64,000 bases of DNA, taken from Alistipes senegalensis. Lineage in GTDB: Bacteria; Pseudomonadota; Gammaproteobacteria; Burkholderiales; Burkholderiaceae_D. The notes beneath the pieces were generated by a model. That model saw nothing but the letters and a program-made list of their open reading frames with translations. It was not told where the DNA came from and did no database searches. Numbering within the stretch: position 1 is the stretch's first letter; each line of letters begins with the position of its first letter. The stretch is taken from positions 1,065,473 to 1,129,472 of the forward strand of contig JAMPER010000001.1 of the NCBI GenBank assembly GCA_023664945.1, given 5' to 3'. Below are positions 12,273-15,057 of this stretch, piece by piece. The position numbers were made by a program, and so were the translations under genes.

Positions 12273-13178
12273 ATGAAAGACCGCCTGCAAAAATTTCTGT
12301 TTGAACACGCAGCCGTCCGCGGCGAATTCGTTGAGATTGCCGCCGCATGGAAACAAATCCAGGAAAACCACGCCTATCCGCCCGCCGTACTTCACCTGCT
12401 GGGAGAAATGACCGCAGCTGCCGTCCTATTGGCAAGCAACATCAAATTCAACGGCTCCCTCATCATGCAAATACAGGGCAACGGCCCGGTTCACCTCCTG
12501 GTCGCGGAATGCGATTCCAGCCTGCACATTCGCGCAACTGCCAAACTGGCAGAAAACGCCGTCATTCCTGATAATGCTACCCTGCGCCAGCTCGTCCACG
12601 CCAATGGCCGCGGACGCTTTGTCATCACGATTGATATGCACGATAAATTGCCCGGCCAGCTCCCCTATCAGGGTATTGTCCCGTTTGAAGGGGAAACTAT
12701 CGCTGAAGTTATCGAAAACTATATGCAGCAATCCGAACAACTCAATACCCGCCTCTGGCTGGCGGCAAACGATACTGTTGCCCGGGGCTTTCTCCTCCAG
12801 AAACTGCCGGGAGAAACCGGAAAAGACGGCCTAAGCCATGATTCGGAAGAAGATGCCAATGCCTGGGATAATCTTGTTGCGCTTTCATCTACCCTTGGAG
12901 AGGATGAAATGCTCAATACGGATATTGATACGCTTCGCCGCCGTCTCTTTCACGAAGAAGATACCCGCCTCTTTGATCCCCGCCATCCCGAATTTTCCTG
13001 CCATTGTTCGCGCAAGAAAATTGCCGACATGTTCCGGATGCTGGGAAAAACCGAAATCCATGACGCACTGGAAAACGAAGGCGGCCAACTGGCTGTCAAC
13101 TGCGACTTTTGCGGCAAAGCCTACCACTTCAACCAGGCCGACATTGCCCAAATCTTTGAAGAGGAAAACCCCGCCTAA
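12273..13178 (+). CDS. hslO: Redox-regulated chaperone Hsp33
   Basis: 301 residues. N-terminal chaperone core from KDRLQKFLFEHAAVRGEFV; C-terminal zinc/redox switch FSCHCSRKK ... NCDFCG, spacing C-x-C-x31-C-x-x-C, as in E. coli Hsp33. Oxidation of the four cysteines releases zinc and activates holdase activity against unfolded proteins in the cytosol. ATG at 12273 with AGGA 8 bases upstream. Divergent from the hydrolase gene. Confidence 0.97.
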   Translation: MKDRLQKFLFEHAAVRGEFVEIAAAWKQIQENHAYPPAVLHLLGEMTAAAVLLASNIKFNGSLIMQIQGNGPVHLLVAECDSSLHIRATAKLAENAVIPDNATLRQLVHANGRGRFVITIDMHDKLPGQLPYQGIVPFEGETIAEVIENYMQQSEQLNTRLWLAANDTVARGFLLQKLPGETGKDGLSHDSEEDANAWDNLVALSSTLGEDEMLNTDIDTLRRRLFHEEDTRLFDPRHPEFSCHCSRKKIADMFRMLGKTEIHDALENEGGQLAVNCDFCGKAYHFNQADIAQIFEEENPA

Positions 13179-13723: not shown

Positions 13724-13800
13724 CTGCCCTTAGCTCAGCTGGATAGAGCAACGGCCTTCTAAGCCGTAGGTCAGTGGTTCGAATCCACTAGGGCAGGCCA
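13724..13800 (+). tRNA. tRNA-Arg(TCT)
   Basis: 77 bases with CCA encoded. Acceptor CTGCCCT pairs with AGGGCAG, discriminator G. D arm GCTCAGCTGGATAGAGC; anticodon stem ACGGC/GCCGT with loop CTTCTAA, so anticodon TCT reading AGA/AGG; T arm AGTGG-TTCGAAT-CCACT. All stems are complete. Confidence 0.97.
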
Positions 13801-13907
13801 TTTCTTTCTAGCACACTTTTTCAATACGTTGGCAATATGAAGTTCCAGTAACGTTCCTGTTTACTGTATTACTGAAATTGATTATCTGCTGAAAAAGCAG
13901 GAGGGTT

Positions 13908-13913
13908 TATAAT
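13908..13913 (+). promoter_or_regulatory. Candidate -10 element upstream of prfB
   Basis: A perfect TATAAT lies 39 bases before the prfB ATG. The -35 region at the right distance is poor (TCTGCT, 13885-13890), so the promoter is only tentative. A small CTGCT/AGCAG hairpin precedes it. Confidence 0.4.
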
Positions 13914-13952: not shown

Positions 13953-15057
13953 ATGGAAGCAGAACGCATCAACGCCATCTCCAGCCTGCTAAACGACCTC
14001 GTCGGGCGCGAAGCCGCCCTGCGGAGGTATCTTTAACTTCCAGGAAAAAGCAGACAAACTGGAACAGGTAAACGCCGAACTGGAAGACCCCAACATCTGG
14101 AACGACCAGAAACGGGCGCAGAACCTCGGCAAGGAAAAAAAATCACTGGAACTGGTTGTCCATACGCTGACCCGCATCCAGACCGAATTAAAAGATACCG
14201 GCGAACTCTTCGCCATGGCGCGGGAAGAAAACGATGAAGATACCCTGGTCGCAGTAGAAGCAGATACCCGCGCCATTGAAAAGGCAGTGGGCGATCTGGA
14301 ATTTTTGCGCATGTTCTCCAACCCCATGGACGCCAGCAACTGCTTTATCGACATCCAGGCAGGTGCCGGCGGCACAGAAGCCCAGGACTGGGCCTCCATG
14401 ATTCTGCGCCAGTATCTGCGCTATTGCGAGCGCAAGGGATTCAAGGCAGAAATCCTTGAAATTTCCGATGGTGAAATAGCCGGCATCAAAACCGCCACCA
14501 TCAAGGTAGAAGGCGAATATGCCTACGGCTTTTTGCGGACAGAAACCGGCGTGCACCGTCTTGTGCGCAAATCGCCCTTTGATTCAAACCACGGCCGCCA
14601 CACCTCCTTCTGCAGCCTGTTTGTATATCCCGAAGTCGATGATTCCATCGAAATTGACATCAACCCGGCCGATGTGCGCGTCGATACCTACCGCGCCTCG
14701 GGAGCAGGCGGCCAGCACATCAACAAGACCGATTCTGCCGTCAGGCTGACCCACATGCCAACCGGCATTGTCGTGCAATGCCAAAACGACAGGAGCCAGC
14801 ACAGGAACCGCGCCGAAGCCTGGGATATGCTCAAATCGCGCCTGTACGAGCTGGAACTGCGCAAGCGCATGAACGAACAGCAGAAACTGGAAGATTCCAA
14901 AACCGATGTCGGCTGGGGACACCAGATCCGCTCCTATGTGCTCGACCAGTCCCGCGTCAAGGACTTGCGCACCCATTTTGAAACCGGCAACACCAAAGCT
15001 GTCCTTGACGGCGACCTGGATGAATTTATTGCCGAATCCCTGAAACAGGGGGTATAA
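13953..15057 (+). CDS. prfB: Peptide chain release factor 2, programmed +1 frameshift with UAA
   Basis: The ATG at 13953 opens a 27-codon frame ending in TAA at 14034-14036; a +1 shift on CTT (14031-14033) continues at 14035 to 15057, giving about 367 residues (E. coli 365). The shifted product reads naturally across the joint (LRRYL then [10 protein letters not shown]). The RF2 anticodon-like SPF is in [10 protein letters not shown] and the catalytic GGQ in SGAGGQH. RF2 releases at UGA and UAA. The frameshift cassette has an internal SD GGAGG (14023-14027), spacer TAT, CTT, then the stop, as in E. coli, except the stop is TAA rather than TGA, which changes the encoded Asp to Asn. prfB-lysS is the usual order. 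Confidence 0.95.
14023..14037 (+). promoter_or_regulatory. RF2 programmed frameshift cassette with TAA stop
   Basis: GGAGG, three-base spacer TAT, slippery CTT and zero-frame TAA followed by C. The position of the SD relative to the slip codon is that known to stimulate +1 shifting. The family norm is TGA, which RF2 alone (not RF1) reads and which underlies autoregulation; TAA can also be read by RF1. Confidence 0.9.

Follow-up and report, generated by a model that had tools for sequence, protein, structure and literature searches.

A UAA stop codon at the prfB frameshift site of two Oxalobacter species and its predicted effect on RF2 autoregulation

The programmed frameshift in prfB serves as the textbook example of autoregulation at the level of translation; its logic depends on having a stop codon read solely by release factor 2 (RF2). 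UAA is read by both RF1 and RF2. We found TAA at this position in the prfB gene of a genome of the genus Oxalobacter (G000), in a 64,000-nucleotide stretch of contig JAMPER010000001.1 that is referred to below as the window. Can a site with such a stop codon still serve RF2 autoregulation, and how did it arise?

The stretch at 14023-14037 of the window reads GGAGG-TAT-CTT-TAA-C and lies within a genuine prfB gene, all features of which are on the forward strand. A TATAAT at 13908..13913, the probable -10 element of the prfB promoter, precedes the start codon, as it does in all 17 upstream regions compared (13 from the genus and 4 from the family). ORF1 (13953..14036) starts with the ATG at 13953 and consists of 27 codons and the zero-frame TAA. 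Its 3′ part holds a Shine-Dalgarno (SD)-like element, GGAGG (14023..14027; CGGAGG with the preceding base), the spacer codon TAT (14028..14030) and the slip site CTT-T (14031..14034, with CTT at 14031-14033), for which the mechanism is taken from E. coli work as given in part of PMC13245932. The zero-frame stop TAA (14034..14036) stands in place of TGA and is followed by C as the fourth base (14037). ORF2 (14035..15057), in the +1 frame, begins with the Asn codon AAC at 14035, in contrast to Asp (GAC) in the relatives with TGA, and encodes an RF2 of 340 residues ending at the stop codon 15055-15057. This frame scores 499.3 bits against the prfB family TIGR00020 (496.6 bits in a second run; the curated cut-off is 370), possesses the SPF and GGQ motifs expected of RF2, and its residues 2-339 align to residues 27-364 of E. 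coli RF2 (1gqe).

The site contains every sequence element of the prfB frameshift motif as defined by Prince et al., in which the stop may be TGA or TAA: the SD-like GGAGG three bases ahead of the slip codon, CTT-T abutting the stop, C after it, a premature stop predicted to be readable by the encoded RF2 with its SPF and GGQ motifs, and an RF2 encoded by the +1 frame past that stop. It is not a strict UGA-type (RF2-only) cassette, its stop being TAA. With E. coli prfB (AGGGGG UAU CUU UGA C) it shares the SD-like element three bases before CUU, the UAU, the CUU-U, the C after the stop and RF2 in the +1 frame. It differs in the UAA stop, which is predicted to be readable by both RF1 and RF2, in Asn rather than Asp at the joint, and in the core GGAGG instead of GGGGG. 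Compared with the TAA-type motifs of Prince et al. (PMC12421855), the position, stop and cassette are the same and we know of no difference.

We then compared this cassette with those of related genomes. A prfB locus was read in 30 of the 60 genomes searched (13 from the genus and 17 from the family), and the cassette is found at the same place in all 30, with TGA in 28 and TAA in two; judged by this conservation, it is not a chance arrangement. The preliminary description of the locus, which reported an RF2 cassette intact except for its TAA stop and encoding Asn at the joint, is correct in this respect, as confirmed by the sequence and the 30 compared loci. Within Oxalobacter, all 13 genomes have the cassette; TAA is found in G000 and in its sister genome G007, and TGA in the other 11. 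A gene tree built with FastTree from 17 sequences (13 from the genus and 4 from the family) places the TAA pair in a clade with a support of 1.0, and the other 15 sequences have TGA, indicating that TGA-to-TAA is the derived change. This change is placed on the stem of the two-species pair.

A single base is at issue, and several of the genomes compared exist as drafts or were assembled from metagenomes, so we considered whether the TAA could be a sequencing or assembly error, which the preliminary description had named as able to overturn it, or a sign of a decaying gene. However, the same TAA occurs in the separately assembled G007, which makes a sequencing error very unlikely. The +1 frames of the two genomes differ at 49 of 1,023 bases (4.8%), with 43 of the changed codons synonymous and 6 nonsynonymous; the ORF1 sequences have two base differences and an identical string of 27 residues; and the RF2 frame is intact. 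We therefore accord error or decay next to no probability. It is likewise very improbable that the frameshift is unneeded and that RF2 is made from a start codon within ORF2. The first ATG, GTG or TTG after the last stop in the +1 frame is the ATG at 14215, which would give a product of 280 residues, but the 60 residues preceding it align with E. coli RF2 from residue 27 onward, and a dispensable cassette is hard to square with its conservation at every locus read.

The surroundings of prfB differ between the two TAA genomes. In G000, a single CRISPR-type repeat lies at 13842-13877 of the window, just ahead of the prfB promoter; by chance, 0 would be expected. In G007, 11 such repeats lie between prfB and the counterpart of the gene at 12273-13178 of the window (L215, G007:C22:28276-46000), together with genes matching Cas9 of type II-B (438.9 bits), Cas1 and Cas4. 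The lone repeat in G000, set beside the array and cas genes of its sister, points to the probable loss of a type II-B CRISPR-Cas locus from G000. G007 (L004/L215) also has a short second prfB 5′ end beside the CRISPR array, consisting of a promoter-like stretch, an ATG and about 15 codons; the real prfB begins about 0.9 kb downstream, and a 193-residue ORF separates the two. A tRNA-Arg (tct) gene is found directly upstream of prfB in G000 (13724-13800), and an ARAGORN scan of seven comparable loci elsewhere detected no tRNA-Arg (tct).

How common are TAA sites? The preliminary description stated that nearly all prfB shift sites use UGA, and this agrees with the survey by Prince et al. (2025; PMC12421855), in which 8,164 prfB motifs are reported as 98.6% TGA and 1.4% TAA, with no TAG, and whose Discussion puts TGA above 99%. 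UAA is thus not common at this site. The authors of the survey describe TAA in several phyla and its retention among strains of one species, and judge that TAA is poorly tolerated, without broad fixation in clades, and that RF2 is expected still to regulate. The TAA-type prfB site is therefore rare but of a kind described before, from several bacterial phyla, and the surprise is smaller than first claimed. Our own counts agree in size with the survey. A TGA-or-TAA pattern has a match in 291 of 399 Burkholderiales genomes (not every match was checked as prfB); the TAA pattern occurs in three, of which two are prfB, while the third (G119) is not. Here TAA is not fixed in a large clade: it is present in 2 of the 13 members of the genus and in 2 of the 399 genomes of the order sample.

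A narrow TAA pattern was also searched for in a collection of 84,980 species; it was run without a parallel TGA count and so gives no frequency. It retrieved 66 stretches; 27 of them, including that of G007, precede an RF2 frame as judged by blastp at E 1e-3. The other 39 have no RF2 following at this threshold and are chance hits, except for L092, from a Parabeggiatoa metagenome-assembled genome (MAG). At L092 the TAA cassette is followed by a +1 frame that ends after 36 residues, and prfB-type matches lie further along the contig (C363); this locus may be a broken or split prfB copy. In the small genome of a Bordetella sp. MAG (L047; CP063810.1, G434:C1), the prfB with a TAA site was matched as two overlapping pieces in different frames, so another break or a slip in assembly is presumed there. 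TAA sites also recur within narrower groups. The genus of Guyparkeria hydrothermalis has four TAA and four TGA sites among the eight readable ones (11 genomes), the genus of an Ottowia MAG has TAA in 2 of the 27 genomes with a match (29 searched), and the family of Thiocapsa imhoffii has TAA in 4 of the 112 genomes with a match (136 searched), three of the four having been checked as prfB. Three TGA species in the genus of G. hydrothermalis (L203, L205 and L206) have the spacer TAC rather than TAT; its four TAA species keep TAT.

We then investigated why TGA became TAA. Mutation pressure towards A+T is not supported, because the TAA pair is richer in G+C (0.538 and 0.537, against 0.513 and 0.496 in two TGA species) and TGA stops are about equally frequent (42.4% and 43.9% of stops in the TAA species, 42.0% and 45.4% in the TGA species). 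The share of TAG stops is slightly higher in the TAA pair (16.1% and 15.2%, against 13.8% and 10.9%; no significance test was applied). For these values, 20 segments of 20 kb were sampled from each genome (in G007, 367 kb were readable), and crude ORF calling gave 223-238 long ORFs in each. The 27 TAA loci of the large scan range in G+C from 0.27 to 0.68; some are from insect symbionts, so drift may be a factor in TAA cases elsewhere. We saw no change within the cassette that could compensate, the SD-like core GGAGG being present in the nearest TGA species as well. A second RF2 gene as compensation was also considered, since GGGGGTATCTTTGACT occurs once more, outside prfB, in exactly the two TAA genomes (at G000:C5:4569-4584, L106, and on G007:C11, L100). 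This candidate was rejected: the +1 frame of the second copy stops after 43 codons, and no match to the prfB region extends beyond 15 bases. The gene that follows the extra copy is one we take to be hslV, and the opposite strand of the copy contains CCCCAT, presumably resembling the -10 element of a heat-shock promoter. The extra prfB-like shift sequence is a coincidence of the kind that pattern searches meet. A single G-to-A transition that has since been tolerated is the most likely origin of the TAA, and nothing was seen that calls for selection.

Loss of a release factor does not account for the TAA either. G000 has one RF2-type and one RF1-type match, and its RF1 is above the cut-off and contains the PVT and GGQ motifs. 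This bears out the earlier suggestion that RF1 could terminate at the site, an intact RF1 gene being present. We searched for prfA in 29 genomes (G000, G007, the L092 genome and 26 others whose prfB has a TAA site) and found a match in all of them; 28 are above the cut-off and the remaining one (G446) is a partial match covering residues 2-222. RF1 loss was rejected as a cause on these grounds. RF3 is above the cut-off in both TAA genomes, as in 10 of the 13 genomes of the genus, and its loss was rejected for both TAA species. The RF2 of G000 has Ala two positions before the G of SGAGGQ, which we take to be position 246 in E. coli RF2 numbering. Ala is present at this position in 22 of the 27 TAA prfB loci, and SPF in 25. 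The five without a readable Ala include three cut or short frames and two full-length proteins with another motif (L038 and L048). Thr, Ala and Ser variants occur at position 246, and the Ala variant is described as active at UAA.

Published experiments, drawn on here from parts of the papers cited, indicate what a UAA at this site could do. In E. coli RF2 reporters of the UAG type (PMC2680264, after Poole 1995), RF1 competes with the shift; the UAG version of the cassette reports RF1 activity, and RF1 mutants cut termination about tenfold. These reporters resemble the present site in having an RF1-readable stop; they are artificial and their stop is read by RF1 only, whereas the site here is natural and its stop is predicted to be read by both factors. 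In B. subtilis, no ribosome queues were reported at UAA on depletion of either factor, and once the UGA stop of rsbV was replaced by UAA, the sigma-B response to knockdown of RF2 was lost, leaving it insensitive to knockdown of RF2 or RF1 (PMC8073009). These data speak for cover by RF1 and against a fully working RF2 feedback. In E. coli, RF2 synthesis exceeds that of RF1 6-9-fold (736.7 versus 82.8 and 526.2 versus 87.1 RPKM; PMC5373646). When frameshifting at prfB is weakened in Pseudomonas fluorescens, fitness suffers and the loop can eventually be lost (PMC13245932). PMC5009743 and PMC5289835 were also drawn on, in part, as background.

We combined such values in a toy model of steady-state competition, with frameshift efficiencies of 28% and 21%, E. 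coli RF1:RF2 ratios, equal efficiency of RF1 and RF2 at UAA, and UAA as a stop 0.5-10 times as strong as UGA. With these E. coli values, RF1 would account for 8-38% of termination at the site, and a doubling of RF1 would lower RF2 by 3-20%. The range over which the shift could rise without RF2 would be 2.4-3.3-fold at UAA, versus 3.6-4.8-fold at UGA. Were UAA a 5-10 times stronger stop, the RF2 level would be reduced to 0.27-0.44 of what it was, unless offset by a 4-9-fold rise in synthesis.

We favour, with moderate confidence, the reading that the site is still an RF2-autoregulating frameshift, in which RF1 would provide an additional, weaker input and limit how far rescue can go, and which arose by the tolerated transition. 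Full-length RF2 would be made only after a +1 shift at CUU-U, with which RF2 and RF1 are both predicted to compete. Plentiful RF2 would terminate at UAA and restrain its own production. With RF2 in short supply, shifting would increase, yet RF1 would keep terminating some ribosomes, so that the ceiling would be lower than with UGA and the outcome an RF2 feedback to which RF1 makes a minor contribution. Given the rsbV swap and the absence of reported UAA queues in B. subtilis, the feedback might be blunted more strongly than the toy model says.

It is rather unlikely, though the best placed of the alternatives, that UAA is in effect read by RF2, with the loop working as at UGA and RF1 taking no measurable part. 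The Discussion of PMC12421855 argues that UAA is mostly RF2-read in most taxa, and on that argument the part of RF1 may be negligible; the described activity of Ala246 RF2 at UAA and the RF2 excess in E. coli agree with it. However, RF1 is intact in G000, and in B. subtilis the responses of UAA to RF2 loss vanish because RF1 covers. The preliminary description proposed instead that the feedback would respond to total RF1+RF2 activity. This is plausible, and of its forms the weak one, in which RF1 supplies a secondary input, is the likeliest. The rsbV swap in B. subtilis favours the proposal, and the RF1 share given by the toy model counts against a strong form, in which the loop would sense total RF activity. 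We consider it distinctly unlikely that one base change turned the loop into such a sensor of RF1+RF2 capacity and that selection keeps it, the switch having arisen repeatedly across bacteria and being held by small clades. Similarly unlikely is the reading that RF1 dominates, so that feedback is largely lost and a low, fixed yield of RF2 marks a step towards loss of the frameshift. UAA is described as RF-agnostic in B. subtilis (PMC8073009), loss of prfB autoregulation is described as frequent, in Pseudomonas through compensation after weakened frameshifting (PMC13245932), and TAA is confined to small groups in the genomes examined. Against this, both TAA species retain the other cassette elements, and with E. 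coli values the toy model gives RF2 the larger share of termination.

Natural UAA sites are ready-made experiments on the logic of a stop reserved for RF2. TAA and TGA species coexist in single genera, with TAA in 2 of 13 Oxalobacter genomes and at four of the eight sites read in the genus of G. hydrothermalis. As stop codon usage is alike in the four sampled Oxalobacter genomes, a comparison of TAA and TGA species in this genus would be clean.
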